Source of the DNA: a virus
Virus record (IMG/VR): IMGVR_UViG_3300047359_001773
Span: 1-58,654 of that record
DNA length: 58,654 bases
Reading direction: 5' to 3' (one strand)
In this document: piece after piece, positions 2-37,400 of the stretch
Layout: every line of letters begins with the position of its first letter
Position numbering within the stretch: the first letter of the stretch is position 1
Translations under genes and position numbers: made by a program
The notes under the pieces: model-generated
What the model saw: only the letters and a program-made list of their open reading frames with translations
Databases searched by the model: none
What the model was told of the DNA's origin: nothing

Positions 2-547
2 TTATCTACGCAAAAAACTTTCTTTTTATCTGACTTTCACGCGAGTTTTTTTAAATCTTTATATGGAAATATTTTTAATAACATCGAAATTGTACCAGAC
101 CCAATAGATAAAGAGATATTCTTCGCTAAAGAAGAGGAAAAAATATATGATATAGTTTATTGTGGATTCCTTCATGAATTAAAAGGCTTGAATAATTTAA
201 TTAAATTTGCCACAGATAATCCATCCAGAAAAATTGATGTTTTTGGCTGGGGCACAATTAACCTAGAGTCATTTTTTTTAAACTTTGAAAATATAAATTT
301 CCATGGAAGAGTTTCTCACCAAGAAACTGCAAGGATTTACAGAAAAAGTAAAGCGATATTCCACAACCCTATTGTTAATGAGCCGTTTTGCAGAATGATC
401 GCAGAATCAATATTATGTGGAGTTAGAGAGTTTCATGGCGACATGGCGAGAATTGGTTCTTATTTAGATTTTAAAGAAAAAGGGTTAGAACAATTTTCCC
501 AAGAATGCAAAAACGCTCAAAATATTTTCTGGAAAAAAGTCTTATGA
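2..547 (+). CDS. Glycosyltransferase family 4-like protein, 5'-truncated
   Basis: This is the C-terminal part of a GT-B glycosyltransferase; the frame is open from base 2, so the start lies outside the window. Visible features are the segment IVPDPIDKEIF that follows the inter-domain linker in GT4 enzymes, VYCGFLHELKG at the start of the nucleotide-sugar domain, and a late region around NPIVNEPFCRMIAES resembling the conserved E(x7)E donor-binding area. It probably transfers a sugar onto a glycan or glycolipid. Its stop codon overlaps the next start (ATGA), so it is the first visible member of a sugar operon. The family call is good; donor and acceptor are unknown. Confidence 0.75.
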   Translation, partial: LSTQKTFFLSDFHASFFKSLYGNIFNNIEIVPDPIDKEIFFAKEEEKIYDIVYCGFLHELKGLNNLIKFATDNPSRKIDVFGWGTINLESFFLNFENINFHGRVSHQETARIYRKSKAIFHNPIVNEPFCRMIAESILCGVREFHGDMARIGSYLDFKEKGLEQFSQECKNAQNIFWKKVL

Positions 548-1227
548 TTTCAGTAATTGTATCAGTATATAATTCGGAAAAGTTCTTGCCTGAATATTTG
601 AAATTTGTTAATGAACAGTTTTGCGAAAACTTTGAAATTATTTTTGTTGACGCAAATTCTACAGATTCTTCGTTGGAGATGATTAAAAATTTTAACTTTA
701 GGAGGGGTATTAGTTCTCGGGTTTTACCCGAAAAATCTAGAATCTCGATATATCAAGCGTGGAATATAGCGATTAGAGCGTCTAAAAGTAAATATATAGT
801 AAACTGGAATACAGACGATATTCTATTCCCTTCTGCCTTGCAAACCTATGAATCGTACTGCACTAAATTTCCTGATGTAGATTTGTTTTATGGAGGCTGT
901 TTTCTATGCAGAGAGCAAAATATCTCTTCCATAAATAATATTTTCATGTGGCCCGAATATAGCCACCAAACATTACTTCAAAGATGCATTTGCGGCCCTT
1001 TCCCTTTAGTTAAAAAAAGTGCAATAAAAAATGTTGGATTGTTTGACGAAAATTACATTTCAAGCGGCGATTATGATATGTGGCTCAGTTTATCAAAAAA
1101 TAATTATAAATTCAAGAGAATACCAGAAATCGTTGGAAGTTTTCTTGATAGGCCTGACTCGGTATCAAAAGACAAAATAGAATTAGCGAGACAAGAAGAT
1201 ATTGAAATTCAAAAAAAATATGAGTAG
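544..1227 (+). CDS. Glycosyltransferase family 2
   Basis: A 227-residue GT-A fold enzyme. The N-terminus ISVIVSVYNSEKFLPEYL is the classic GT2 opening, followed by IIFVDANSTDSS (nucleotide-binding strand and loop) and WNTDDILFPSAL, where the DD pair sits where GT2 enzymes hold the metal/nucleotide (DxD-like). Start chosen at the ATG that overlaps the upstream stop by 4 nt, because the GT2 core begins at residue 2. It probably adds a sugar to a surface glycan together with its neighbours. Donor and acceptor cannot be read from the sequence. Confidence 0.88.
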   Translation: MISVIVSVYNSEKFLPEYLKFVNEQFCENFEIIFVDANSTDSSLEMIKNFNFRRGISSRVLPEKSRISIYQAWNIAIRASKSKYIVNWNTDDILFPSALQTYESYCTKFPDVDLFYGGCFLCREQNISSINNIFMWPEYSHQTLLQRCICGPFPLVKKSAIKNVGLFDENYISSGDYDMWLSLSKNNYKFKRIPEIVGSFLDRPDSVSKDKIELARQEDIEIQKKYE

Positions 1228-1918
1228 ACTTGGAATCATTCAACCGGGCAGATTAGGAGACATTATTATATGTCTGCCTATAGCAAAGTATTATTTTGAT
1301 CGAGGTTACCAAATATTATGGCCAGTTCTTTGCGACTATATTGATATATTCAGAGATATAGATTATGTCGAGACGATTAATTTAAAATGTAGTATAAGCA
1401 ATTCGGTTCTCCGCGCGAAAGAAATATGTAAGCAAGCTCAATATAAGGAGCTAGACTTGTCCTTCGGTTTTTTTGGGAGTTCGGTTGAGCAATACCATTC
1501 AAATACTAATTTTGCAAAAAACTTCGTTGAAGCAAAATATAAACTATCAAATGTTCCGATTGAAGAAAGATGGAAGCTTGACTTCAAAAGAGACTATTCG
1601 CGAGAAAATTCCTTATTTAAAAAAATGATTAAGAGCTCAAGTTATGTACTTGCTCACGAAAATTCGTCACAAGGAAACCATTTTTTTATAGATGGAGACA
1701 ATATAATAAAAGTCATGCCAATTAAAGGCTACAATATTTTTAATTGGATGCAAATCATTGAGGGGGCTGAGGAAATATATTGCATTGATAGCTCTGTTTG
1801 TAACCTGATTGAATCTCAAAAACACTTAAAAGATAAAATTAAAAAATATATCCCCGCAAAGCAATTCGCTGCAGGCTGGGGCAGAACAACCTTGGAAAAT
1901 AATTGGCAGATATTATGA
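1220..1918 (+). CDS. Glycosyltransferase family 9 (heptosyltransferase-like)
   Basis: A 232-residue protein starting LGIIQPGRLGDIIICLPIAK, the hallmark N-terminus of GT9 (ADP-heptose:LPS heptosyltransferase-like) proteins. A later segment, WMQIIEGAEEIYCIDSSV, matches the donor-site region where GT9 enzymes read a cell-surface DSS/DTS motif. It is shorter than cellular GT9 enzymes (about 320-350 residues). The start overlaps the end of the previous gene by 8 nt. Likely role: adding a sugar to a lipid-linked or LPS-like acceptor. An inactive relative is possible given the length. Confidence 0.7.
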   Translation: MSRLGIIQPGRLGDIIICLPIAKYYFDRGYQILWPVLCDYIDIFRDIDYVETINLKCSISNSVLRAKEICKQAQYKELDLSFGFFGSSVEQYHSNTNFAKNFVEAKYKLSNVPIEERWKLDFKRDYSRENSLFKKMIKSSSYVLAHENSSQGNHFFIDGDNIIKVMPIKGYNIFNWMQIIEGAEEIYCIDSSVCNLIESQKHLKDKIKKYIPAKQFAAGWGRTTLENNWQIL

Positions 1919-2892
1919 AATGGTTAATTTTTTCAACAATTGGTAAAAATCCTGGAGATGAATTTATAAGAGTTGGCGTAGAATACCTAATAAGTAAAAT
2001 TGATAAAAACGCAATAATTGAAGTCCTAGACAAAGAAACTAGCGATATCTACAACAGTTCTAATTTTGACAAATGCATATGGGCAGGAATGCCTGTTTTT
2101 TGGAGTTTATATTCAAACAATAACTGGGGTATTCAATGGTGGAAAAATATGACAGGACAATGGCCCTCTCAAAATAAAAATAATTTTTGCGTACTTGGCG
2201 CAGGCAGCTTTCAAGACTGGGAAAATATATATCGAGGAGCAGACATCAATGGATTATCTAGAAGTGCGCGGCAATTAAAAGATCATTCATTCGAGGTTGT
2301 AGCTAGAGATCCTGCAGTTAATGATATATGTAAATCAAGCTTTAAAGTATTAACTTGCCCTGCTATTTTTTCTTGCCAAAATAAACCAAAAACACAATCA
2401 ATTAAAGCCTGCAACCTGATGCCGGGAGGCTCGCACTACAGAGACTTTAACCCGAATCAATCTCAAACCTGGGACTCAATACAGAAACCTATAGCAGATT
2501 CACTAATTAAAAATAATTTTGTTTTCTTTGCTCACAATAATAAAGAATACCAACTTGCGCAACAGCTTGGTTGGAATCAAAAATCAATTATAAATTACAG
2601 TGGTAATACAAATTTGGTTTTAGAAAATTATAGAAATGTAGATAAGTTTTTTGGCAATAGAGTGCATGGTTGTATAGTTTCTCGAGGTAATGGGGCAGAT
2701 GTAATTTCCTGCGGTTATGACTCAAGGCAAGAAGCTGTTAAGTTATCTGGAGCAAAAACATTTTTACCCTCGCAGATTGACGTTCAAAAAATTTCACAAT
2801 GGGCGCAATCAGATCCTATTTTAGACAAACCAGATCTTGCTAGTCTAGAGCTTGAATATATAGACATATTAAAATCTTTTAAATATATATAA
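1915..2892 (+). CDS. Polysaccharide pyruvyl transferase-like protein
   Basis: A 325-residue protein. FSTIGKNPGDEFIRVGVEYL near the N-terminus and NRVHGCIVSRGNGADVISCG near the C-terminus are the two regions that define the polysaccharide pyruvyl transferase family (a G-N/P-x-GD motif and an R-x-HG motif). Family members transfer pyruvate from phosphoenolpyruvate to sugars of surface polysaccharides, or act as related glycosyltransferases. The start overlaps the preceding stop (ATGA), so it is translationally coupled to the glycosyltransferases. The exact reaction is not established from sequence. Confidence 0.7.
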   Translation: MKWLIFSTIGKNPGDEFIRVGVEYLISKIDKNAIIEVLDKETSDIYNSSNFDKCIWAGMPVFWSLYSNNNWGIQWWKNMTGQWPSQNKNNFCVLGAGSFQDWENIYRGADINGLSRSARQLKDHSFEVVARDPAVNDICKSSFKVLTCPAIFSCQNKPKTQSIKACNLMPGGSHYRDFNPNQSQTWDSIQKPIADSLIKNNFVFFAHNNKEYQLAQQLGWNQKSIINYSGNTNLVLENYRNVDKFFGNRVHGCIVSRGNGADVISCGYDSRQEAVKLSGAKTFLPSQIDVQKISQWAQSDPILDKPDLASLELEYIDILKSFKYI

Positions 2893-2909
2893 ATACTCAC
2901 TATTCTCGC

Positions 2910-2915
2910 TATTAT
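2910..2915 (+). promoter_or_regulatory. -10 box TATTAT, 6 nt before the ATG
   Basis: TATTAT lies exactly 6 nt before the dehydratase ATG at 2922. There is no good -35 hexamer upstream, so it may be read by a phage sigma factor. The spacing predicts a leaderless transcript. Confidence 0.45.
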
Positions 2916-2921
2916 CATATA

Positions 2922-3956
2922 ATGAAAAAAATAACAGTAACAGGAGTAACAGGTCAAGACGGTAGTCATATGGTTGACTATCTTTTAAAAAATACAAATT
3001 ATAAAATATACGGTACAGCGCGACGCTTAAGCGTAAAAAACCATGAAAATATTTTACATCTAGAAAATGAATCGCGATTTGAGCTAATTGACATGGATTT
3101 AAATGACGCGCATAGTATTCGTGATATAGTGATTGATTTACAGCCAGATTTTTTCATAAACTTTGCTGCACAATCTTTTGTAGCTGGGAGTTGGAATTAT
3201 CCAATACAAACGTGGGAAACAGATTCTAATGCAGTGCTACATATTTTAGAATCAATTAGAAGGTTTTCTCCTCACTGTAGATTTTACAATGCTGGAAGCA
3301 GTGAAGAATTTGGTGACGTTGTTTTCTCTCCTCAAAACGAATCCCACCCATTACTTCCTCAATCTCCTTATGGAGCAGCAAAATGCGCCGCAAGGCATAT
3401 TGTGAGGGTTTACAGAGAGTCTTATGGTTTATATGCGATACAAGGATGGTTATTTAATCACGAAGGAAAAAGGCGAGGGTTAGATTTCGTCACAAGAAAA
3501 ATTACCCATGGCATCGCAAAAATAAAAACTCAAATAGAAAATAATCAAAAAATAACACCTCTTACTTTAGGAAATATTGAAGCTAAAAGGGACTGGAGTG
3601 ACGCAGAGGATTTTATGGACGGCGTTTGGTTAATGCTTAATCAAGATCGTCCAAAAAATTATGTACTCGGAAGCGGCGAAATGCATAGTGTAAGAGAATT
3701 TCTTGAAGAAGCATTAAATTATTCCGGTATTAAATACATCAAATCAGGCAAGAACGAAGAAGAAAAATATTTTACAGAAAACAAAGAAATACTATTTGAA
3801 GTTAATCGAAAATTTTATCGACCAGCAGAAGTTCATAAACTATGCGGAGATCCATCTTTAGCTGAAAAAGAATTGGGTTGGAAAAGAAAAACAAATTTTA
3901 AAAAATTAGTTCAAAAAATGTACGATAATGATTACAATTTATTGTGTAATAAGTAA
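2922..3956 (+). CDS. gmd: GDP-mannose 4,6-dehydratase
   Basis: A 344-residue extended short-chain dehydrogenase. It begins with the Rossmann motif TGVTGQDGSHMVDYLL, carries NFAAQSFVAGSW and NAGSSEEFG (catalytic Ser/Thr and Glu region), and the catalytic pair YxxxK at about residue 150 in SPYGAAK. These are diagnostic for GMD, which converts GDP-D-mannose to GDP-4-keto-6-deoxy-mannose, the precursor of GDP-fucose, rhamnose or perosamine. Length matches the family (about 340-370). No partner reductase or aminotransferase is seen here, so the end sugar is unknown. It follows the glycosyltransferases but has its own -10 box. Cytoplasmic. Confidence 0.93.
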   Translation: MKKITVTGVTGQDGSHMVDYLLKNTNYKIYGTARRLSVKNHENILHLENESRFELIDMDLNDAHSIRDIVIDLQPDFFINFAAQSFVAGSWNYPIQTWETDSNAVLHILESIRRFSPHCRFYNAGSSEEFGDVVFSPQNESHPLLPQSPYGAAKCAARHIVRVYRESYGLYAIQGWLFNHEGKRRGLDFVTRKITHGIAKIKTQIENNQKITPLTLGNIEAKRDWSDAEDFMDGVWLMLNQDRPKNYVLGSGEMHSVREFLEEALNYSGIKYIKSGKNEEEKYFTENKEILFEVNRKFYRPAEVHKLCGDPSLAEKELGWKRKTNFKKLVQKMYDNDYNLLCNK

Positions 3957-5789: not shown

Positions 5790-6242
5790 ATGTCATATTA
5801 CTTCAAAAAAAATTACAGACCAGATTCAAATAAAACAAAAATAACAATGAATAATCTATTAAATGATTTATTCCTCAACTTCTCATTACCCGAAGAAACA
5901 GATTATTTTAATGATTTAGATGATTATCCAGTTCAAGCTAATGTTATTGCGAGAGAAAAAGAAACCATAATAGAACTACTAACTCCAGGAATACCCAAGG
6001 AAGACATCAACATCGAATGCGACAACGGAAAGCTCTCTGTCTCTTATAAAACCCCAAAAGAAGAATCTATCGAAGGAGAATATGTTCAGCAACAAATCTT
6101 TAAAGATGGATTCAAGAATACATTTAAACTTACATCAGAATTAGATTCTAATAAAATATCTGCATCAATGCATAACGGTATATTGGAGATTAAAATCCCT
6201 CGCAAAAAAGGAAAGTTATCAAATAAAATAAAAATTGATTGA
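5790..6242 (+). CDS. Small heat shock protein Hsp20 family
   Basis: 150 residues with an alpha-crystallin domain from about residue 48 to the end. IELLTPGIPKEDINIECDNG is the typical A-x-x-PG-x-x-K-E-D-I start, and MHNGILEIKIPRKKGK is the A-x-x-x-NG-x-L-x-I/V-x-x-P end of the family. Hsp20 proteins are ATP-independent holdases. Related genes occur in marine T4-like phages, where they may aid virion assembly or protect phage proteins. It is followed closely by the barrel protein, whose -35 box overlaps this stop codon. Confidence 0.9.
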   Translation: MSYYFKKNYRPDSNKTKITMNNLLNDLFLNFSLPEETDYFNDLDDYPVQANVIAREKETIIELLTPGIPKEDINIECDNGKLSVSYKTPKEESIEGEYVQQQIFKDGFKNTFKLTSELDSNKISASMHNGILEIKIPRKKGKLSNKIKID

Positions 6243-6266
6243 CATTTCTGATATATAATATATAAT
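6239..6266 (+). promoter_or_regulatory. Promoter of the barrel protein gene
   Basis: TTGACA at 6239-6244 and TATAAT at 6261-6266 with a 16-nt spacer. The -35 overlaps the hsp20 stop codon. A second TATAAT lies at 6254-6259. Confidence 0.6.
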
Positions 6267-6278
6267 CCTACTTTAATT

Positions 6279-6929
6279 ATGAAAAAATTATTAATTACTA
6301 TTACCGCTATTACAGCGCTTTTTATTAACGCAGCTTACGCTGGATCCGGCTCTGTATCCCTTGGATATGGAAGCGACACATTCAATAAAGGCTCTTTACT
6401 CACAGAAGAAAGTCTTTCTGCTTCAGTCGGTTACAGTCAAGAAATTGAAAGCCTAACCCTTGAAGGTTCGGCATCTTCTTTTGATGAACTCTCTGACGGA
6501 CAAAGTGTTTATGTTTTTTCTGTAGGAGCTTCTTCTGAATTTGCAGATTTACTCAAAGCTTATGTTGGCCTTGAGCATGAAGAGATTGTGAGTGGTCAAA
6601 GTCAACTAGATGCAGTTGTGAGATTGAGCTTGAATACTGTATTATCTCCTTATCTATTAATTCAAAGAGATACCAGTGATAATAACTACGTCTTCGAAGG
6701 AGGAATGTCACACGGTTTTGATTTGCAATTCGCAAATTTAACTATTGGCGGATCAGTCGGTAATTCAGATAGGTATGGACTTGAAAATAATGATTACTAT
6801 CAAGTTGGCGCGACTCTTTCAAAAAATCTAACCGATTCTATTGAAGGTTCTATAGGATATGCGAGAGTAGATTCTGAATCTATGGATGGAGAAGATTTAT
6901 TGTCTGCAGCATTTAACTTTTCTTTTTAA
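6279..6929 (+). CDS. Small outer-membrane beta-barrel-like protein
   Basis: 216 residues with a clear Sec signal peptide (MKKLLITITAITALFINAAYA, cleaved after AYA). The mature part alternates short hydrophobic and polar stretches (SVSLGYGS, LSASVGYS, NLTIGGSVGN, GSIGYARV) and ends in LLSAAFNFSF, a terminal Phe typical of substrates of the BAM machinery. It is therefore predicted to be an 8-10-stranded outer-membrane barrel, which implies a Gram-negative-type host. No named family is recognised. A terminator follows. Possible roles are blocking re-infection or changing the host surface; both are inference. Confidence 0.65.
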   Translation: MKKLLITITAITALFINAAYAGSGSVSLGYGSDTFNKGSLLTEESLSASVGYSQEIESLTLEGSASSFDELSDGQSVYVFSVGASSEFADLLKAYVGLEHEEIVSGQSQLDAVVRLSLNTVLSPYLLIQRDTSDNNYVFEGGMSHGFDLQFANLTIGGSVGNSDRYGLENNDYYQVGATLSKNLTDSIEGSIGYARVDSESMDGEDLLSAAFNFSF

Positions 6930-6953
6930 GAAATCTAATAAATGTTCCATACG

Positions 6954-6979
6954 GCCACCCAAAAATGGGTGGCTTTTTT
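6954..6979 (+). terminator. Rho-independent terminator
   Basis: Perfect 7-bp stem GCCACCC/GGGTGGC with a 6-nt loop followed by six T residues, just after the barrel protein gene. Confidence 0.9.
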
Positions 6980-7002
6980 GTGTAATTATAGTTTGTAAAT
7001 AT

Positions 7003-7008
7003 TATAAT
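7003..7008 (+). promoter_or_regulatory. -10 box TATAAT, 6 nt before the ATG
   Basis: TATAAT ends 6 nt before the ATG at 7015, right after the upstream terminator. No convincing -35 is seen. A leaderless mRNA is predicted. Confidence 0.5.
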
Positions 7009-7014
7009 CCTACA

Positions 7015-9285
7015 ATGAAAAAACTAATTTTATTATTCTTATCATCAATCTATTGCTTTGGCGATACACTTTATTTTAACAACGGAAAAGATCTAAAAGG
7101 AGATATTCTTGAGGCAAATGCGACTCACGCTTTAATAAAAAGATCTAGTGATTTACAGTTATTTAGAATAGCAATAGATTCTCTAACAGAAGATAATCAA
7201 GCTTATATTAAAAATAACTTCCCTCCCAGTCACGAAGCTTTACCTAAATTCAAAAAACCTCTAGCAGATAACGATCTAAAAACTCATGCTAATTATATTG
7301 ATAGCTTGATTGAAACAAAACTTAGAGGATATAATCTTCGACCAAATAAAGAAGTTGACGACGCTACATTTTTACGCAGATCATACTTGAAGGTTATTGG
7401 CAGGACTCCATCTTTAACAGAAGTAGATTCTTTTTTAAATAGTAAAGATAAAAATAAAAGATCGCAGCTAATTGATCAATTATTAGGTAGCGAAGGATAT
7501 GTAAGCCATTGGTTTAACTTTTGGGCAGATATATTAAGAATTAAAGATAGATTAAACAATAGAATATCTGGCGTTCCATATAAAAATTATGTAAAAGACT
7601 TCATCTCCAATAACAAACCTTATGATGAATGGGTAAGAGAGATGCTTTCTTCTTCTGGCCCACTATGGATTAAAGGTAATGAGGGAGTTAGTTATTTTGC
7701 TCGTGATGTAAATATGCCATTAGACAGTATGGCAAATACAGTTAGAGTATTCTTAGGTACGAGCTTAGAATGCGCCCAATGCCACGATCATCCATTTGAT
7801 CGCTGGACTCAAAAGCAATTTTACGAAATGGCAGCTTTTACGAGTGGCTCAACTAACTTAAGAACCAAAAGTCCAGAAAATTTAACCATATTAAACAGAT
7901 TGGCTAGAGATGAAAGGCGCAAATTAGAAAATAATGATGAACCGCAAAAATCAAGGCAATTACAAAACGGAGTGAGAGACATACAAGACATTCTTCAAAC
8001 TGGACTAGCTAGTATGGGCAATGGAAAGATAAATCTTCCAAAAGATTATCAATACGACAACGGAAAACCAAACCAAGCATTAATGGGTAAAACTATTTTT
8101 GGAGAAGAGATAGACATTAAAACAAAAGCCCCTCAATCAGGATCTAGAGAAATTTATGCAAACTGGCTAGCCTCAGATTCAAACCCAAGATTTACAGCAG
8201 TTATTGTTAACCGACTCTGGAAAGAAGCTTTTGGACTAGCATTAATTGAACCCATAGACAATATGTTTGATGATACATTAGCGACCGATCCAAAACTTCA
8301 ACTTCACCTCGAAAAAGTTATGGTTGCATTAAATTATGACCTTAAGGAATTTCTTAGAATATTATATAATACAAAAACTTTTCAGCGCCAATCTATGGTG
8401 AGGGACATTATTGCTAAAGACAACAAAGATCAGTCTATGCCCGTAGAAGTAAAATGGATTGTGGCTGGTCCAGATAGCGAAAATCAATCCAAAAATGCAG
8501 TACCATATTTCTATCAAGGGCCTATGCTTGAAAGAATGAGCGGAGAACAAATCTGGGATTCCTTAGTTAATTTAACGGTAAATAATATTGATTCTAGAAA
8601 ATTAGAGCAAAACACAAAAGGATATGAAAATTTTCAAAATTTTTCAGAAATGACAGGAGAAGAATTGTTTTTGGAATTGATGGCAAAAATAAACAAAACT
8701 GAAAGACCTAAAACTCAAAGCGAGTCTAAATTCAGCAAACCAATAAACACAGACTGTCCAATCAAACCCGGTAGAGCGATAGACCCAACATTATTAGCTC
8801 TAAATGAAAACGGAGAGACTTTAGCTTTTTGTTGTGACTCTTGTGTTGATAAATTCAAATCCCAGATTGAAAACAAGAAAAAAGAATATCAGCAAAACTT
8901 TGTAAAAGACCGTAATTCAGTAAGAGCCTCAGAACTGCCTTCTCCTGCGCCCATAGGGCACCTCATTCGTGAGTTTGGTGGTTCAGATAGGGAACAGATA
9001 GAAAACGCAAATAAAAGCGCTTCTGCGACACAAGTATTGAATCTTCTTAATGGTTTTGTTGAAACTAGATTATTAAAAAATAAAAACTTTGAAATTATAA
9101 AAGCAATACAGTCTCAAAAGTCATTAAATGATAAAATTACAACAGGATATAAATATATATTAAACAGAGAGCCCTCTTCTAAAGAAATTAAAATATTTAC
9201 TGATAATATTAAAAACGAAAAAGATGCATATAAAGAAATAATTTGGACATTAATTAATACTCATGAATTTATATTTGTAAAATAA
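7015..9285 (+). CDS. DUF1549/DUF1553 (Planctomycete-type) secreted protein
   Basis: 756 residues from the ATG with a signal peptide (MKKLILLFLSSIYCFG). Residues 20-65 resemble the SHD1-like N-terminal module of PVC proteins. A DUF1549 (PSCyt2) domain follows, with FLRRSYLKVIGRTPSLTEVD and, at residues 253-257, CAQCH followed by DHPFDRW, which reads as a c-type heme site. DUF1553 (PSD1) starts near residue 378 (IYANWLASDSNPRFT, NRLWKEAFG). An inserted YHS-like Cys cluster (CPIK, CCDSC) lies at about 580-615. Family members are secreted proteins of Planctomycetes and Verrucomicrobia, linked to polysaccharide use but biochemically poorly defined. Normally paired with DUF1501, as here. Very unusual in a phage. 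Confidence 0.9.
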   Translation: MKKLILLFLSSIYCFGDTLYFNNGKDLKGDILEANATHALIKRSSDLQLFRIAIDSLTEDNQAYIKNNFPPSHEALPKFKKPLADNDLKTHANYIDSLIETKLRGYNLRPNKEVDDATFLRRSYLKVIGRTPSLTEVDSFLNSKDKNKRSQLIDQLLGSEGYVSHWFNFWADILRIKDRLNNRISGVPYKNYVKDFISNNKPYDEWVREMLSSSGPLWIKGNEGVSYFARDVNMPLDSMANTVRVFLGTSLECAQCHDHPFDRWTQKQFYEMAAFTSGSTNLRTKSPENLTILNRLARDERRKLENNDEPQKSRQLQNGVRDIQDILQTGLASMGNGKINLPKDYQYDNGKPNQALMGKTIFGEEIDIKTKAPQSGSREIYANWLASDSNPRFTAVIVNRLWKEAFGLALIEPIDNMFDDTLATDPKLQLHLEKVMVALNYDLKEFLRILYNTKTFQRQSMVRDIIAKDNKDQSMPVEVKWIVAGPDSENQSKNAVPYFYQGPMLERMSGEQIWDSLVNLTVNNIDSRKLEQNTKGYENFQNFSEMTGEELFLELMAKINKTERPKTQSESKFSKPINTDCPIKPGRAIDPTLLALNENGETLAFCCDSCVDKFKSQIENKKKEYQQNFVKDRNSVRASELPSPAPIGHLIREFGGSDREQIENANKSASATQVLNLLNGFVETRLLKNKNFEIIKAIQSQKSLNDKITTGYKYILNREPSSKEIKIFTDNIKNEKDAYKEIIWTLINTHEFIFVK

Positions 9286-9647
9286 TCCCACTTTTTCTTT
9301 TTGAAGACATAAACCTTGCCATCTTTTACGTAGATCCATCCAAGTTTGTGAGTATAAATATAATCTTTATATTGAGGGGTGTTGTATATCCAACCTAATT
9401 TTTCAGAATAAATCCAACACATAGAAGTTTTTTCTTTATAAGTTCCATATGCTCTGCCTATATTTCTATAATTAAACCATATTGGTTTCGGTTTTTGCTT
9501 GCATCTCATACTCCATTCGCCGATATCTAATGGCTGAGTAGACTTAGCTTGATTTTTGCACCAATCACAATTATCTAAATAATCTTCTCTTTGCAATCTA
9601 GCGCATAAAATACTGGGTATAATGAATATAAGCAATAAAAACCGCAC
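9261..9647 (-). CDS. Secreted protein with LGWIY repeats
   Basis: 128 residues from a GTG start, with a signal peptide (MRFLLLIFIIPSILCA). The mature part has a Cys-rich start (CDWCKNQ, MRCKQK) and a C-terminal half built on repeats: WIYSEKLGWIYN, YIYTHKLGWIYV, and a final KKKWDYF. Repeats of the GWIY type are common in secreted proteins of marine Verrucomicrobia. It sits antisense between the DUF1549 and DUF1501 genes, its 3' end overlapping the DUF1549 gene tail to tail by 25 nt. Function unknown; extracellular or periplasmic. Confidence 0.65.
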   Translation of the reverse strand: MRFLLLIFIIPSILCARLQREDYLDNCDWCKNQAKSTQPLDIGEWSMRCKQKPKPIWFNYRNIGRAYGTYKEKTSMCWIYSEKLGWIYNTPQYKDYIYTHKLGWIYVKDGKVYVFKKKKWDYFTNINS

Positions 9648-9688
9648 AATATATCATACACTTTCTGTTGACTTTTCTCAAAATTGTG

Positions 9689-9694
9689 TAATAA
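9689..9694 (+). promoter_or_regulatory. -10 box TAATAA in a GTGTAATA context
   Basis: GTGTAATAA lies 6 nt before the DUF1501 ATG. A TTGACT sits at 9668-9673 but with only a 15-nt spacer. The GTGTAATA context also precedes the genes starting at 21845 (-) and 32568 (+), and may mark a phage-specific promoter class. Confidence 0.4.
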
Positions 9695-9700
9695 TCTATT

Positions 9701-10993
9701 ATGAACTTTAATACAATAGACGAATTAGGAAGAAGAGAATTTATAGCTCATGCTGCAAAAGCATGTTTTGGGGTGGGTCTTATGCCAATGGCAGGAGCGT
9801 ATATACATAATAGTGTTAGCGCGTTAAATCCAGGAGCAAGAGTTCCTACTGCAAGGCACGTAATCTATTTAAATATGGGAGGAGCCATGTCTCACCTTGA
9901 TACATTTGGGCCGAAGCCAGACGCACCAGATATTCAAGGTCCTACCAAATCTATTCCAACAAGCGCGGATGGAGTAATTCTTTCAGAAAACCTACCAAAG
10001 ACCGCCGAGCTTATGCATCATGCAGCAATAATTAAAACAATGAACACAAGCCAAGGAGCTCATGAGCAAGCCAGTTATTTAATGCATACAAGCTATCTTA
10101 AAAGAGGCACAATTGTTCATCCTACATTTGGTAGCTGGGTGTCCAAACTTTCTGGTTCAATCAACAGAACAATACCAAGTAATGTTAAAATAGGAGGCGG
10201 CGGAGGCGGAGCTGGCTTTTTAGAATCTAAATACGGAGCATTACCAATTAATAATCCAAGCTCAGGACTAGCCAATAGCAAAATGGCTTCATACTTAGAT
10301 CATGAGCATTTTCAAAGTAGGATATCTATCGCAGAAGCTTTAAATGAAAATTTTTCCACCCAATTTCCGCAGAAAAAAGTAAGAGCTTATTCTGACTTAT
10401 ATAAAGACGCAATTAAATTAATGAATAGTAATGACTTAAACGCTTTTGACATCACAAAAGAGCCTGAGTCAACAAGTGATCTTTATGGTCAAACTAATTT
10501 TGCAAAAGGATGCTTATTAGCAAGAAGGTTAGTAGAGCACGGGGTAAGATATGTTGAAGTAACAAGAGGAGGATGGGATACACATGATAATAACTTTGAT
10601 AGAGTAGCGGCAAATTGCGCAGATATCGATCAAGCATTAAGTGGCCTGTTAATCGATTTAAATCGAAGAGGTATGCTTTCTGAGACTTTGGTAGTTTTAA
10701 CTTCTGAATTTGGAAGAACTCCAAATATTAACGGAAGAGACGGAAGAGATCACTGGCCTTATTGCTTTACAGCTTTTTTAGCAGGAGGAGGAGTTAAAGG
10801 TGGAATGACTTATGGAGAAACCGACAAAACGGGGCGAACTCCTACAGAAGGCAAGCCTGTTAAACCAGAAGACTTAAACGCTACAATTGCACACACTTTA
10901 GGCTTACCATTAAATGACTACCAATATTCTCCTTCTGGAAGACCTTTTACAATAGCTCATAAAGGCGAGCCTTTACTTGATATCTTGTCATAA
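9701..10993 (+). CDS. DUF1501 family Tat-exported protein
   Basis: 430 residues. LGRREFIAHAAKACFGVG is a twin-arginine type signal, as in other DUF1501 proteins (MxRRxFL). Family hallmarks are YLNMGGAMSHLDTFGPKP, SEFGRTPNINGRDGRDHW and FLAGGGVKGGMTYGETD. DUF1501 belongs to the alkaline phosphatase/sulfatase superfamily and in PVC bacteria is nearly always next to a DUF1549/DUF1553 gene, as here. Length is close to cellular members (about 430-490). The substrate is unknown. Taken with the upstream gene it looks like an intact two-gene PVC export module carried by the phage. Confidence 0.9.
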   Translation: MNFNTIDELGRREFIAHAAKACFGVGLMPMAGAYIHNSVSALNPGARVPTARHVIYLNMGGAMSHLDTFGPKPDAPDIQGPTKSIPTSADGVILSENLPKTAELMHHAAIIKTMNTSQGAHEQASYLMHTSYLKRGTIVHPTFGSWVSKLSGSINRTIPSNVKIGGGGGGAGFLESKYGALPINNPSSGLANSKMASYLDHEHFQSRISIAEALNENFSTQFPQKKVRAYSDLYKDAIKLMNSNDLNAFDITKEPESTSDLYGQTNFAKGCLLARRLVEHGVRYVEVTRGGWDTHDNNFDRVAANCADIDQALSGLLIDLNRRGMLSETLVVLTSEFGRTPNINGRDGRDHWPYCFTAFLAGGGVKGGMTYGETDKTGRTPTEGKPVKPEDLNATIAHTLGLPLNDYQYSPSGRPFTIAHKGEPLLDILS

Positions 10994-10995
10994 AA

Positions 10996-11015
10996 AAGCC
11001 CCCTTACGGGGGCTT
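10996..11015. terminator. Bidirectional terminator
   Basis: Perfect hairpin AAGCCCCC/GGGGGCTT with a TTAC loop. On the minus strand it is followed by TTTTTTA, so it terminates nrdB; on the plus strand it ends the DUF1501 transcript. Confidence 0.88.
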
Positions 11016-14913: not shown

Positions 14914-15687
14914 ATGATTCCTTTATTTAAAAGTCACTTTTCTATAGGCAAAAGTATATTAACGCTTGAAGATCCAATTACACATAAAGAAGGTAAGTCG
15001 GACAGTGTTTTTACAATTGCTACAGAAAATAAATTAAAAGAAGTAGTTCTTGTAGAAGATTCATTAACTGGATTCCTACAAGCTAAAAAACAAGCAGACA
15101 ATCTTGGATTAAAATTAATTTTTGGTTTAAGAATAAACATGAAAGAAGATGCTAAAATCAACCCTAAAGAAGAAAGTCAACAATCCTCACATAAGATCAT
15201 AATCTTTGCCAAAAACGCAAATGGATGCAAATTGTTAAATAGTATATCAAGCGAAGCTAATACAGAGAACTTCAATTGTGTGGATCGCAAGACTTTAAAA
15301 AAATACTGGAAAAATAAAGACTTACTAATGGCTGTACCATTTTATGATTCATTTATATTTAATAATTTAATTAAATTTTGCAATTGCACACCAAACTTTG
15401 ATTTTTGTAAGCCAACATTGTTTATAGAGAATAATTCTCTTCCATTTGATAATTTTGTAGCTAAGAAAGTTCAAGAGTATGCAGATGGCAATAATTTAAA
15501 AACACAACATACAAAAAGTATATATTATAAAAACAAAAAAGATGTAAAAGCTCTACAAACATATAAATGCATAACTGGTAGAAGCTTCGGAAATAAAACA
15601 TTATCAAAACCAAACTTAGATCATTTCGGCAGCAATGAGTTTTGCTTCGAAAGCTGGAAGAAAAAAAATGAAAGAATCACTGCTTAG
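14914..15687 (+). CDS. DNA polymerase III alpha, separate PHP domain
   Basis: 257 residues corresponding only to the N-terminal PHP part of a C-family polymerase: LFKSHFSIGKSILTLEDP, VLVEDSLTGFLQAKKQADN and LIFGLRINM fit strands of the PHP barrel. The HxH metal-binding motif expected in the first strand is reduced to a single His (KSHFS), so it is probably not a nuclease and may only stabilise the polymerase. It overlaps the next gene by 20 nt and is followed, after an exonuclease gene, by the polymerase core. First gene of a three-gene replicase operon. Confidence 0.72.
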   Translation: MIPLFKSHFSIGKSILTLEDPITHKEGKSDSVFTIATENKLKEVVLVEDSLTGFLQAKKQADNLGLKLIFGLRINMKEDAKINPKEESQQSSHKIIIFAKNANGCKLLNSISSEANTENFNCVDRKTLKKYWKNKDLLMAVPFYDSFIFNNLIKFCNCTPNFDFCKPTLFIENNSLPFDNFVAKKVQEYADGNNLKTQHTKSIYYKNKKDVKALQTYKCITGRSFGNKTLSKPNLDHFGSNEFCFESWKKKNERITA

Positions 15688-16312
15688 ATTTCAAAAAAAT
15701 AAAAAGTATTTACTGTTTGACTACGAAACATGTAACTTAAACCTTGTATCAAACAATAAACCTTGGCAATTAGCATTTCTTGTAATAGAAAATAATAAAA
15801 TTGTAGAACAAAAAGATTATTGGCTTAAATGGGACGAATTAAACGTTTCTCCTGACGCAGCCAAAATCACTGGCTTTACAGAATCAAAGTACAAGAAAAA
15901 AGCTACATGCCCCAAAGCTGCACTAGACCACTTTGAGAAGTATTTATACGATGACTCTTATCTTAAGGTTGGTCATAACTTGCTAGGATTTGATGTTTAC
16001 ATGCATAATGTTCATCGTAAACTTATTGATGAAAATGCAGAAACTGATTTCAGCTATACTGAGCATCTAGTTGATACCTTATGTCTTGCAAAAGCTCTTA
16101 AGAAGAGAATAAGGCTAGATAAAGATGATAATTTTTTAGCATGGCAATATCGACTTAATCACTTGATTGAGAGAGGCTTAAGTTGTAATCTTAAGCAATG
16201 CTGCAAAGATTTTGATGTTGACTTTGATGAAAAAAAATTGCATGATGCTATATACGAAATTAAAGTTAACTACGAAGTATTCAAAAAAATGATATGGGAG
16301 ATAGAAGTATAA
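15668..16312 (+). CDS. DnaQ-like 3'-5' exonuclease
   Basis: 214 residues of the DEDD fold. Exo I is FDYETCN (D18, E20), Exo II is VGHNLLGFDVYMH, and Exo III is HDAIYEIKVNYEVF, beginning at H192. The Exo III aspartate of DnaQ-type enzymes is replaced by Glu (E197), a conservative change that may alter activity. Start at 15668 because the Exo I motif begins soon after; a longer frame would run into the previous gene. Lying between the PHP and polymerase genes, it is the likely proofreading subunit of the phage replicase. Confidence 0.82.
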   Translation: MKESLLRFQKNKKYLLFDYETCNLNLVSNNKPWQLAFLVIENNKIVEQKDYWLKWDELNVSPDAAKITGFTESKYKKKATCPKAALDHFEKYLYDDSYLKVGHNLLGFDVYMHNVHRKLIDENAETDFSYTEHLVDTLCLAKALKKRIRLDKDDNFLAWQYRLNHLIERGLSCNLKQCCKDFDVDFDEKKLHDAIYEIKVNYEVFKKMIWEIEV

Positions 16313-18870
16313 TGAGTTTTACAGAACAGTTTACAGATTACGAAGATTGTGCGCCTCCAGGCGTAAAATTACCAGAAATTAAAATCGAAAAGAAATACTA
16401 TGAAATGCTTGATGCATCAGAAGATATTTCAAACTTCGACTTCCTGCGCAAGCTATGTCATAAAGGAGTTTATGATAGAGGCATAGATAAATTTAAAAAT
16501 AAGAAAGAATATTTTCATAGAGCAAAATCAGAGCTTAAAATCTTAGATGAGCTAGGGTTTATAGATTATATTTTATTAAACTGGGATATAATAAATTATT
16601 GCCACGAAAATGATATACCTACGGGCCCAGGCAGAGGATCTGCGGCGGGCTCCCTAGTTTTATACTTAATTGGCGTAACTAATGTTGATCCAGTTAAATA
16701 CAGCTTATTTTTCGAGCGTTTTGTTTCTAAAAGCAGGGCAAGAAAAATAGAAAAAAACGGAACAACATATCTTGATGGCAGCCTTTTGGCTGACGTGGAT
16801 AATGATATTGCTTATGAAAGAAGGGCTGAGGTTATAGAATACATAGAAAAAAAACATCCTGCTCGTACAGCTAAAATATTAACGCTAAACACTCTTAGCG
16901 GAAAGCTCTGTATAAAGGAATGCGGAAAAATTGCTGGAGAATTTTCCGAGCAAGAAGTTAATGAGGTTAGCGACACCATTCCAAAAAAGTTTGGAGTTGT
17001 TATGCCAATTTCATCTGCAATAGAAGAGAGTGAAAAATTTGCAGATTGGGCAGCTAATAACCCAGAAGTCTTTGAGATCGCTCTTAAGCTAGAAGGTTTG
17101 AATAAAAACACTGGCGTACACCCTAGCGGAATCGCAATTTCTTTCCAAAAAATTACTGATATTTGCCCAATTCAAAAATCAAATGATGGAGCTTTAGTGA
17201 CAGGGTACGACATGAATTGGGTTGCAGAGCTTATGGTAAAGTTTGATATCTTAGGTTTAAGAACATTAAGTGTGATTTATGATGTATGTCGCAACTTAGA
17301 TATAGATATTTCCGCTGTAGACCTAAATGACGCAAACGTATATAAACCCCTGCAAGGCCTGAAGGCGCCTCACGGGCTTTTTCAGCTTGAGTCTGACACA
17401 AACTATAGGGTCTGCAAGAAAATCAAGCCAAAAGACCTAGAGCAGCTTAGTGCAGTTGTGGCAATTGGAAGGCCAGGTGCATTAGAATTTTTAGATAACT
17501 ATGCCACATATTCTGAAACAGAAGAGGCTCAGGTTATTCATGAATTTTTTAGTGATGTTTTAGACTATACAGGAGGAATTCCGTTATATCAAGAGCAATT
17601 AATGCAAATGGCGGTTAAAGTTGGGTTCACTCTTGATGAAGCGGAACAGCTCAGAAGGATCGTTGGTAAGAAAAAGGTTGATCAAATGCCTGCATGGAAA
17701 AAGAAGATTGAAGACAAAGTAGAGCAAAACGATCTGCCTAGAGAAATATCCCACATTTTGTGGAGTGTGGCAGAAGATAGTGCAAACTATTCCTTTAACA
17801 AATCGCACTCTCTTGCATACGCAACTCTATCAGCATGGACCACTTATCTAAAATTTAACTATCCACAGCAGTTTTTTATATCTTTATTAAAAATGACCAA
17901 ATACGAGCCTTCTCCACAAGAAGAAATAGCTAAAGTATGCCAAGAACTATCTAATTTCGGAATTAAATTATTATCCCCCGACTTAGCTAAGTCTGGAATG
18001 GATTTTTCTATTGAAGGTAAAAATATTAGATTTGGACTAAATAGCATCAAGGGCGTAAGCGAGAAATCCCTTCAGTCTCTTAGAGATTTTCGTTCTAGTG
18101 AAACTCCGACAAAATACGACATCTTTCTCGCAGCAAAGCAAGCAGGATTAAACATTGGTATTTTGAGCGCGTTAATACAAGCTGGAGCTTTAGAAAGTAA
18201 AGGTAAAAATAGATCGCTAATGGTCCTTGAGGCTCAAGCATTCAACCTTCTTACTGATAGAGAGAAACGTAATTTTATTTCTCTTGGTGATAAATATGAA
18301 TATAAACTTCTAAACTGCATAGCAGATACCAAAAAAGGCGACCTAGTTGGAGATGACGGGAAGCCATTAATGAAAGAATCTAGATTTAAAACATTTAAGA
18401 AAAAATATGACATATATAAGTCAATTTACGATAAAAATAAAATGTATCAAGGTTTTGCTAATTGGTATTTTGAAACAGAGTTACTTGGATACAGTCATAG
18501 CTCTTCACTGAAATCATGCTTTATGGATTCCTATGAGTCATTAAAAGACTCAAGGGACTTAAATCTTATGAATTCAGATGACAAAGGTAAATTTATCGGA
18601 GTTGTAGAAGATTGCATCAAAAGAACTTCTCGCAACGGAAATAAATATATGAAACTATCAATTACAGATGAACATGGCAAATATGATGCCATGCTTTTAA
18701 ATTCAAGAAGAGGTAATTTTTATGACAGATATTTTGAATCAAAAAAGAAAACCCCATCAAAAAAGAATATAATAGTAGTATACGGAAGAAAAGGTGAAGA
18801 TATAGTTTTTTTAGATTCATTGAATATAATGGATGAAAAGATATATATGAAAATGTCTGATATTAAATAA
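16312..18870 (+). CDS. dnaE: DNA polymerase III alpha catalytic core (C family)
   Basis: 852 residues. PTGPGRGSAAGSLVLYLIG (from about residue 105) and LADVDNDIAYERR with catalytic D161/D163 are the DnaE palm motifs. MVKFDILGLRTLSVIYD and HGLFQLESD mark the rest of the palm and fingers; LRRIVGKKK and FNKSHSLAYATLSAWTTYL follow. An OB-fold (GKFIGVVEDCIKR) lies near the C-terminus. The PHP domain is absent because it is a separate gene. The start overlaps the exonuclease stop (TAATG). It should be the phage replicative polymerase. Confidence 0.93.
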   Translation: MSFTEQFTDYEDCAPPGVKLPEIKIEKKYYEMLDASEDISNFDFLRKLCHKGVYDRGIDKFKNKKEYFHRAKSELKILDELGFIDYILLNWDIINYCHENDIPTGPGRGSAAGSLVLYLIGVTNVDPVKYSLFFERFVSKSRARKIEKNGTTYLDGSLLADVDNDIAYERRAEVIEYIEKKHPARTAKILTLNTLSGKLCIKECGKIAGEFSEQEVNEVSDTIPKKFGVVMPISSAIEESEKFADWAANNPEVFEIALKLEGLNKNTGVHPSGIAISFQKITDICPIQKSNDGALVTGYDMNWVAELMVKFDILGLRTLSVIYDVCRNLDIDISAVDLNDANVYKPLQGLKAPHGLFQLESDTNYRVCKKIKPKDLEQLSAVVAIGRPGALEFLDNYATYSETEEAQVIHEFFSDVLDYTGGIPLYQEQLMQMAVKVGFTLDEAEQLRRIVGKKKVDQMPAWKKKIEDKVEQNDLPREISHILWSVAEDSANYSFNKSHSLAYATLSAWTTYLKFNYPQQFFISLLKMTKYEPSPQEEIAKVCQELSNFGIKLLSPDLAKSGMDFSIEGKNIRFGLNSIKGVSEKSLQSLRDFRSSETPTKYDIFLAAKQAGLNIGILSALIQAGALESKGKNRSLMVLEAQAFNLLTDREKRNFISLGDKYEYKLLNCIADTKKGDLVGDDGKPLMKESRFKTFKKKYDIYKSIYDKNKMYQGFANWYFETELLGYSHSSSLKSCFMDSYESLKDSRDLNLMNSDDKGKFIGVVEDCIKRTSRNGNKYMKLSITDEHGKYDAMLLNSRRGNFYDRYFESKKKTPSKKNIIVVYGRKGEDIVFLDSLNIMDEKIYMKMSDIK

Positions 18871-34167: not shown

Positions 34168-34456
34168 TAATTTCGCTTAGATTATAGCAGGCGATACGGT
34201 CTGTAACAATATTATAGCCCGGGGTAGTTCCAATACTATACCCGGGTTCTTTTTGGTCTGTAAGAATTAGCTCGGAAATAAAATCATGCGCCCCTTTACT
34301 TTTTAACCAATTCCAATAAATTGATCGAGTACCAGGTTCACATTCAAGTAAAATGTCATCAAATATATAAGTTTTTGCATATAATGTAACATCGCGAAAA
34401 CAATATATCTCACTAGGAGGTTCACTCAGGGTCGACTGGATAATAAGTTTCTTCAT
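34139..34456 (-). CDS. Hypothetical protein downstream of giant virion gene
   Basis: 105 residues, not recognised. Contains YCFRDVTLYAKTYIFDDILL and an aromatic IYWNWLKSKGAHDFI segment. It overlaps the 3' end of the 1911-codon gene by 35 nt in another frame, so the two are probably translated from one message. It could be a fibre chaperone, a common product at this position, but no motif supports that. Confidence 0.55.
   Translation of the reverse strand: MKKLIIQSTLSEPPSEIYCFRDVTLYAKTYIFDDILLECEPGTRSIYWNWLKSKGAHDFISELILTDQKEPGYSIGTTPGYNIVTDRIACYNLSEIINSLQQFLR
34217..34254 (+). terminator. Terminator inside a convergent gene
   Basis: Hairpin with outer stem CCCGGG/CCCGGG and inner TAGT/ACTA pairing, followed by TTCTTTTT. 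It serves the plus-strand 101-residue gene yet lies in the coding region of the minus-strand gene. Confidence 0.75.
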
Positions 34457-37400
34457 GTAAATTCAAATTGTGATTATGTTTCACTCCACAAGATATACAA
34501 GTTCTTTTTTTGTCCGTCAACTTTTGCATTCTATCTTGATAAAAATCTTGATTTAAAAATTCATTCAGTGAAACGGAATTTCTGTAATCTGCGCTGAGAG
34601 TATAATAATAGGCTGTATAATATTGCCTTCCTGTATACATTACTATGGGATCAGAAGGGTGATTTTTCATTTCGGTTTTAACTAATTTTTTACCGTCTTT
34701 AGCTACAGCATTATAATTCACAGAGTACCCAAGATCTTCTAACATACCAATTCCTACTGCAGTCATTGGAGAATCAGCAACATCATAAATTGGAGAAATC
34801 ATTTCTATTAAAGTGGGTCTAATTGATTTTCCTGCCCACCTTGCATATTCCCCAACATGACCACCAGTTCGACCAGTATTTATTTGAGTTTCAATTGAGT
34901 AACCTTCTGCAGGAACTGCATCGGTATTAAAAGAAAAACCTTGACTAAAAAGAAAATCTAGAGGATATGGGTTATCGTTTGATTCCGGACCAACAATCTT
35001 TTGCTGAGTACTGTTATAGTAGTATGCATATTTTGCAGAATTAATCATTTCTTTATACTTTTGAACTCCTTTTGGACCAGTATACTCTGCGCCATATATT
35101 CCATTTCTTAAATAATTTAAATAGCCAAAATAACTACCGCTCCCCCAGAAACCTCCTCCCAATCCGTGCCATAATTCATGAATCATAATTGCACATAATT
35201 TTGAAACACCATTTAACATGCCTGCATTTCCATATGTGCTTATAGTTTCTCTACCAGTTCCAGGAGGATAAATATCCATTAAATCAAGCCTAACTTCCAT
35301 AGATGTAACTTGCCTGCTTTCTCCATTAAAAACATTATTTATTGAATCGTCAAAACTACGCGGGCCACACGAAGCTAAAGTGCCAGATACAGCTCCTGGG
35401 TCAAGCAAATTGATTCTTACTTCAATTTCCATATCGGTTGTTATAACTGATTCCCAGTATGCTCGAGCATATTCAAGTTCGATTTTTTCTCTCTCCTCTA
35501 AATCTATAAAATACTTAAAATTTAATTTTAACCCAGATCTTGAACTAGGTATACTTAAATGAGGTATATTTGGTCCATATATAGATCCGGCACCCTGCAA
35601 GCCTCCGCTATATTTTTCAACATCCTCTTGATCAGAACCTCTCGCAAATACGGTTGGCTCTTCCCAATGTATAACCCCACAAAGACTACTATTATAAATA
35701 TATTGTCTATTATCTTCCGTACGTTCAAGAGTAAGAGTTGCTAGTGAATATTTTTTATCTCCAATCGGCAAATCTGAAGTTGTTGTTCGCAAATCTGGAT
35801 GAAGACTTCCAAATCTAAAAACTCCAACACTTTGATATATAATATCATCTGAAGATACCAGTTGGGGGACTTCAACTGACCAGCCATTCCAATTCCACGA
35901 TACTTCGCCATTATCACTATCATATACTTTTTCAAGGCTACCCGTGTTTTCCCAAACACGAGTATCTTTTGGCTTTATTCCAAAAACATATCTTTTGTTC
36001 TTAGGTTGAAATTGCGCGTTGGGATTAACTGAAAAATCTTTATTATTTTTTCTGTACGCAAAAACAATTTCAACGTTACCAAATTGCCCCATATTCTTCC
36101 ACGCCGACTCCATCGGAGATGTTGGTAGTACTCTATGATATTTTTCTAAAGGCACCCGTAAAGCGACCGCTGGCTTTCCCATTAAGGTCGTTCCATTGAA
36201 ATCATAAAGAGTTTGATCATTAGACTTAGGATAACTCCCTTTTTGGATATTTCCCCATGTGTACTTCCCGTCGGATCTTTGCGTTCCTAAAATATAATTC
36301 ATATAACCATACCATTGAGGAGATTGAATCATAAAACCAGCTTGAAGATCTGGACCTTCTTCTTGCGATGAATCAGGTATATTTTCGATTTGGTAATCTT
36401 TGACCGAAGAAGACCAGCCATTTCCATCGTTACCATCCTCTGGCGGTAGCGAGTTATCTTGTATTATCTTGTAAGGTCCATACAGCGCTGGAAAACTTGA
36501 CCCCTGTAAACTATTAGGGGTATTATTATAGTCAAAAAGCTCTGAATGAGGTAAAAAATTACCCATAGAAGATTTATATTTTACAATCGTTCTAGCTTGA
36601 AAATTTCGTTTTGAAGATGATTGAGAAACAGATCTTCTAAAAGCTTCAAATCTCAAAAAAGATAACCTACTTTTCGCTTTTGGCGAAAATGGTCCATGCA
36701 AAGACTCTCCTGAAATTTCATCATTATCAGTAATGTAAGTATTTAAGGGGTAGTAGTTGCATTCATCTAAAGCTCTACTATAAACGTTTTCACCTTTAAC
36801 TCTTAAATTATGAATGAACGCCCAAGAGGAGTCTGTGATTTTTTTTGATTGACTTTGAATGTTTTCAACTTCAAAATTATTATTTTCATTTTTCTGCATG
36901 TCTTCTTTTATTTCGCTAATCGCAACGCCAGGATCTGAAGGAAATTCTAATGTCCAGCTAAAAGACTCTGTTTTACTATCGAGCCCAAAAGAGATAGGCC
37001 TTCCTTCAGCAAAACAATTAATCATCATACCTTGATTCCGATCATGGTAACTCTCAGGATGAAAACTGTTTCGCGAAGGATAAGAATTGAATCTTTTGAG
37101 GTACATATTATTTTGATTTGGATAGCTATAAGCGCTTTGCCTACTAACTTCGCCATTTTCATCAATTAATATATCATAAAATTTATCTTCTATATGCAAG
37201 ACAACTTCGTCCTTCCTTCCTTTATTTACCGCTACGAAGCTTAAATACTTAAAGCATAAAACCGAACCTGGATTAAATGCATTATTTTTTTCGGAAGTTG
37301 AGATAAAAGAAATCCTAAAATAATAATGGTTATTACTCATTGGTTTTGGAAAATATTTACTATTTTTTCGAACAATGAAATGGCATCTATTTGACGCATT

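Follow-up and report, generated by a model that had tools for sequence, protein, structure and literature searches.

A host-derived PSCyt2/PSD1 and DUF1501 gene pair in large marine phages of probable Opitutales hosts

We identified two neighbouring genes in a marine virus, encoding a PSCyt2/PSD1 protein (DUF1549/DUF1553; hereafter PS) and a DUF1501 protein (hereafter DU), that we interpret as an auxiliary module acquired from the host by large marine phages of Opitutales, which would supply a host envelope function until lysis (probability roughly 0.65). The window, i.e., the whole stretch of DNA analysed, comprises the 58,654 bases of record IMGVR_UViG_3300047359_001773, which has no end repeats and holds one copy each of PS and DU (Table 1). 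Its GC content is 34.4%, with 33% in PS and 39% in DU, and the corresponding host loci have 39-53%. Genes for a terminase, PhoH, a DnaE-type polymerase with a PHP-domain neighbour, a ClpA/B-like ATPase and an ATP-dependent DNA ligase are found elsewhere in the window, confirming its identity as a phage; the small subunit of a class I ribonucleotide reductase (NrdB) is also encoded, and no tRNA genes were found in the 58,654 bases. The genuine phage setting and the flanking genes described in the initial annotation are therefore both as claimed. The small gene between PS and DU is an insert seen in one sub-group of the related phages.

Table 1. Features of the PS/DU module and its flanks, in window coordinates.
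Feature	Position	Strand	Remarks
Hsp20 gene	5790		flank of module
Sigma-70 consensus TTGACA-16-TATAAT, perfect	6239..6266	+	5' of barrel gene; pattern match only
Beta-barrel-like outer-membrane protein	6279..6929	+	weak PF24653 match, below cut-off; often near DU
Terminator-like hairpin	6953..6974	+	between barrel gene and PS
PS: PSCyt2 (DUF1549) + PSD1 (DUF1553)	7015..9285	+	756 aa; predicted Sec-type leader, SHD1-like N-terminal domain, C-terminal DUF4214
CAQCH, candidate c-type heme attachment motif of PS	7771..7785	+	residues 253-257
YHS-like cysteine cluster of PS (CPIKPGR ... CCDSC)	8755..8844	+	residues 581-610
Small predicted secreted protein	9261..9647	-	128 aa; GWIY-type repeats; between PS and DU
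DU: DUF1501 protein	9701..10993	+	430 aa; predicted alkaline-phosphatase/sulfatase fold
Twin-arginine motif RREF of DU	9731..9742	+	R11/R12 99% conserved
GC-rich terminator-like hairpin	10996..11015	-	between convergent DU and NrdB
NrdB gene	11043		flank of module, next after DU
NrdA-length ORF	12369		flank of module

Among the IMG/VR relatives, whose records are possibly incomplete, PS was identified in 23 loci and DU in 34 loci, on contigs of up to 206 kb. Wherever both genes were present and fully covered in these loci, PS always lay upstream of DU, the same gene order recurring in many independent contigs. Across the module and its flanking regions, the window aligns at 85-92% DNA identity with two contigs of other metagenomes, one of which has a gene inserted after DU. 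An assembly chimera was rejected, as the same junctions occur in independent contigs and samples. We also rejected an integrated prophage, the other alternative raised at the outset, because 273 genomes sampled from the probable host order yielded nothing close to the terminase of the window; no phage contigs were found in these genomes of Opitutales. Within the annotated phages of INPHARED, we found neither PS nor a full-length DU, the sole match to the latter being partial (23%) and located in a 6.9-kb faecal contig. A weak DUF1501 match is also on record for Pseudomonas phage ZC03 (PMC5418858), but this hypothetical protein, of 61 residues, is too small to count as related to DU. We found no earlier report of the PS/DU pair in a phage in the open-access literature searched.

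In a maximum likelihood tree of 67 DU proteins, the phage sequences resolve into five groups (A, containing the window, and B, C, D and E) that are split by bacterial sequences, with at least five label changes. Forcing all phage DU into one clade was 331 log-likelihood units worse (p-AU 6e-99), and a single acquisition by the phage lineage is thus rejected. Constraints joining A with B (p 6e-51) and A with D (p 0.005) were also rejected, although these p values are somewhat optimistic, the groups having been named after the tree was seen. Host clades enclose groups B and C, and one of them is the sister of A, a topology that fits transfer of the same gene from hosts to viruses at least three times; for D and E, the tree is compatible with either direction. 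The PS tree, which was built faster, places A and B as in the DU tree. The terminase tree is at odds with the DU groups: phages with a group E (L148) and a group C (L149) DU have terminases close to that of the window, and in L148 DU adjoins NrdB, as it does in the window, suggesting that DU versions have been swapped among close phages.

Pairwise dN/dS ratios against phage relatives were 0.036-0.12 for PS and 0.018-0.105 for DU, with synonymous sites often saturated; such values indicate strong purifying selection on PS and DU alike, in agreement with the proposal that they are kept by selection. By the trees, the AU tests and these ratios, the module is host-derived, phage-carried and selectively maintained, as expected of an auxiliary metabolic gene, which would also alter host physiology during infection.

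The origin in the PVC group suggested by the initial annotation can be narrowed, from nearest relatives and trees, to the marine Opitutales (Verrucomicrobiota). The best cellular relatives of PS belong to marine Opitutales/Verrucomicrobiota, including single-cell genomes, and those from Planctomycetota reach about 40% or less. The nearest cellular DU sequences are 81% (TMED40; clade A, that of the window), 89% (clade B) and 83% (clade C) identical. Each Opitutales genome searched contains 8-62 copies of DUF1501 and exactly one DU ortholog (64-82% identity, the next best copy reaching at most 53%); across the order, this ortholog was present in 27 of 246 sampled genomes, one copy each. Judged by sequence, it is the same single host DUF1501 ortholog that the phages carry, and the hosts of these large marine phages are probably Verrucomicrobia of the order Opitutales, an indirect assignment made through these relatives.

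The order of genes at the Opitutales locus is PS, DU, a third gene (X) and a SufS-type desulfurase, the last named from its sequence. X encodes three PSCyt1 heme domains and LRR-type repeats, and a multiheme TPR cytochrome is often located upstream of the locus on the opposite strand. X was absent from the phage regions read. Some of the fully read host loci have a sulfatase downstream, and some an FGE-sulfatase-like gene upstream. This proximity is the only link we identified to the polysaccharide use initially proposed for the module, which we do not retain as its function. In Verrucomicrobia, PSCyt genes have been described in the vicinity of sulfatases and in combination with carbohydrate-binding modules (PMC5615132).

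We identified phages in which DU is present and PS is not. The PSCyt2 domain was missing from 12 of the 20 DU-bearing phage records searched, some as long as 194 and 206 kb. Among these 12, L038 is a truncated case, in which the contig breaks off inside PS and only the final portion of the gene is retained. DU without PS was found in L039, L047, L048-L053, L056-L058 and L149, spanning groups A (L039, L056), B (L047, L058) and C (L149) and the searched sequences of D. In these cases PS is missing from the DU neighbourhoods read, and since the records are fragments it might lie elsewhere in some. Thus, the idea of a selected module is correct in that both genes are under purifying selection, but the pair is rejected as the unit: in phages, DU is the core and PS is optional.

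DU matched DUF1501 (PF07394) over the complete profile (1-390 of 390; E=2.3e-110; 369.8 bits against a cut-off of 27), indicating that the gene is an intact member of this family, as first reported. The expected signal peptides are present on both proteins, but they appear from their sequences to be of two kinds, a typical Sec-type leader on PS and a twin-arginine leader on DU. DU had no match among solved structures by sequence, and no meaningful alignment was obtained when a profile of a wide range of DUF1501 proteins was compared with host sulfatases. A structural model of DU (mean pLDDT 70, higher in the core) matched known folds with Z scores of 16-19 over 235-275 residues (PafA and ENPP6, both 18.9; sulfatases, about 17), placing it by predicted fold in the alkaline phosphatase superfamily. 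Conserved candidate active-site residues are D67, H121, D293, H295, E336, R339 and H351, and the strand bearing E336 was aligned with the metal-Asp strand of one sulfatase in a short, weak, in-register match. We rejected DU as an S1 sulfatase, since the C/S-x-P-x-R motif is absent from all phage DU. No conserved Ser/Thr/Cys nucleophile was identified near H121, so that DU may lack hydrolase activity altogether, and non-enzymatic roles are possible. If it is an enzyme, a first guess from the modelled fold would be a phospho- or sulfo-ester substrate on the envelope or on an exported molecule.

Such an activity might alter the surface of the infected cell: DU, with or without PS, would modify an envelope or capsule glycan, leading to superinfection exclusion or to virions that do not stick. 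The leaders suggest that both proteins are exported, enzymes of the alkaline phosphatase fold often act on phospho- or sulfo-esters, and genes for nucleotide-sugar enzymes, glycosyltransferases and outer-membrane barrels lie nearby in the window and in many related phages. Other, quite different DUF1501 proteins (in L150, L151 and a second copy of L019/L045) form a second phage cassette that sits among other surface-type proteins. However, the module's own neighbourhood is not constant, with short phage genes following it in L002 and L008, and the capture each time of the same host ortholog, little altered, suits support of a host function better. We therefore regard a surface change as unlikely.

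PS would start at the ATG at position 7015, as in the initial annotation, most likely the true start of an ORF spanning 6886-9285, as the longer reading from 6886 would contain the hairpin upstream. Read from this start, PS is intact, with near-complete matches above cut-off to both PSCyt2 (PF07583; E=1.3e-45, 156.4 bits, profile positions 2-205 of 209) and PSD1 (PF07587; E=8.3e-26, 91.3 bits, positions 2-241 of 244), which together with the CxxCH motif identify it as a member of the PSCyt2/PSD1 group. The heme-type motif noted initially is indeed kept, C253, C256 and H257 being invariant across 50 phage and bacterial relatives, and PS probably binds one heme covalently; host relatives of group A (the TMED40 group) have an additional CxxCH. 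The YHS-like cysteine cluster is present in the PS of the window, but it is missing from the other phage sub-groups with PS, and no YHS model was matched at E<=0.01, the spacing of the cysteines being merely similar. Phage PS have one such cluster or none, and other Opitutales one or two. In a model of mean pLDDT 86.5, residues 14-72 of PS resemble SHD1 (fold search, Z 6.1); the remainder gave no convincing fold match, with only weak phycobilisome-linker-like helices, and sequence comparison with solved structures returned noise only.

The cytochrome-like features of PS raise a second alternative, that of an electron-transfer or envelope-stress module, in which PS would be a cytochrome that maintains periplasmic redox balance or respiration during infection, and DU would be its partner. 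This is consistent with the invariance of the CxxCH motif and with the tri-heme and multiheme proteins beside the host copy, and in Rhodopirellula baltica a PSD1/PSCyt2 gene has been reported together with an ECF sigma factor whose expression rises in response to heat, cold and salt (PMC2754498). Yet the heme-binding motif of PS is a candidate identified from sequence, the multiheme partners are absent from the phage regions read, and many phages keep DU alone, which lacks a heme motif. We consider this reading less likely still than a surface change. Neutral host cargo or a chimeric assembly, functionless in the phage, is very improbable, as it is favoured only by the general fact that large phages acquire host-like genes, and is opposed by the low dN/dS ratios (0.018-0.12 overall, often with saturated synonymous sites), the identical junctions in independent samples and the repeated capture of one ortholog.

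We favour instead the supply of a host envelope function by the phage. That viruses took up the same host gene at least three times suggests that its envelope role is important in infection. From the order of the host genes, we infer that PS, DU and the tri-heme PSCyt1/LRR protein X may form one envelope complex or pathway, with DU exported folded through the Tat pathway and PS through Sec. As host expression drops in infection, the phage would provide newly made DU, as the component in shortest supply or greatest demand, and some phage lineages would also supply PS, keeping the host envelope function running until lysis. Phages would exchange the gene for the version of their current host, which would produce the repeated captures and swaps. 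It is conceivable, at somewhat below even odds, that this one DUF1501 copy among tens in Opitutales is an envelope bottleneck that virulent phages must keep supplied. If so, captures by phages would mark the essential copy and offer a route to the function of the DUF1501/PSCyt expansion in PVC bacteria. Both families are strongly expanded in Planctomycetes and Verrucomicrobia, the papers found call their function unknown, and repeated phage capture singles out the copy to study first. The literature leads (redox chemistry, extracytoplasmic stress, a chitin synthase operon) are leads only, none of them a tested function. The results also yield a host assignment open to testing: marine Opitutales would be the hosts of this widespread lineage of large, uncultured marine phages.

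Among known systems, the closest is the Opitutales PS-DU-X operon, which shares with the phages the two genes in the same order, a DU 77-89% identical to clades A-C and the CxxCH motif. The phages differ in lacking X in the regions read, in a shorter PS, in having one YHS-like cluster or none, and in often carrying DU alone. DUF1800-DUF1501 operons of other bacteria, including those of chitin-synthase clusters (PMC5122149), similarly place DUF1501, with a Tat motif, directly after a larger DUF partner, and we found this arrangement in one Opitutales genome (L266). Their partner is DUF1800 rather than PSCyt2/PSD1, and a profile comparison of the two was not significant, so that homology was not shown. 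The alkaline phosphatase/NPP/sulfatase superfamily resembles DU in its modelled fold, but the sulfatase motif and a conserved nucleophile are both lacking from phage DU.

Finally, cyanophages carry psbA and often psbD, host-derived genes that have been repeatedly exchanged with hosts under strong purifying selection, one being commoner than its partner. The supply role of psbA is demonstrated and both products are photosystem core proteins, whereas PS and DU would be exported and their supply role is one that we infer. The likeness is thus one of pattern only: host origin, repeated exchange, one gene more widespread than the other, and purifying selection.

For the module of the PSCyt2/PSD1 (DUF1549/DUF1553) protein (PS) and the DUF1501 protein (DU), many relatives have sugar genes comparable to those of the window upstream of their DU gene. 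The GWIY-repeat gene between PS and DU was identified in one sub-group of phages, its product sharing 34% identity with a portion of a reading frame of 1524 aa from a genome of the Opitutales, the probable host order.

Features of the window surrounding the module and elsewhere
Feature	Position	Strand	Context
Glycosyltransferase, pyruvyl-transferase-like and GDP-mannose dehydratase gene cluster	188-3956		Upstream of module
Perfect sigma-70 consensus (candidate, pattern match)	6239-6266		5' of outer-membrane barrel gene
Strong hairpin terminator (predicted)	6953-6974		3' of outer-membrane barrel gene
Small secreted protein, GWIY-type repeats	9261-9647	-	Between PS and DU
PHP-domain protein	14914		Part of apparently split DnaE-type polymerase
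225-aa protein, exonuclease-like by eye	15635		As above
DnaE core	16294		As above
1911-aa protein	34422-40157	-	

The DnaE-type polymerase (14914-18870) appears to be split into separate, overlapping genes. The 1911-aa protein had no match in Pfam or PHROG.

We additionally observed a second DUF1501 cassette, of a subfamily other than that of DU, in the related phages L019 (13331-17640), L150 and L151, with a large membrane-anchored protein adjoining the DUF1501 protein. This neighbour looks vWA-like by eye in L019, which also encodes a secreted GWxY-repeat protein in its cassette, and contains TSP3 repeats in L151. The cassette DUF1501 of L019 matches DU at 37%, and those of L150 and L151 match bacterial sequences at 34-35%.
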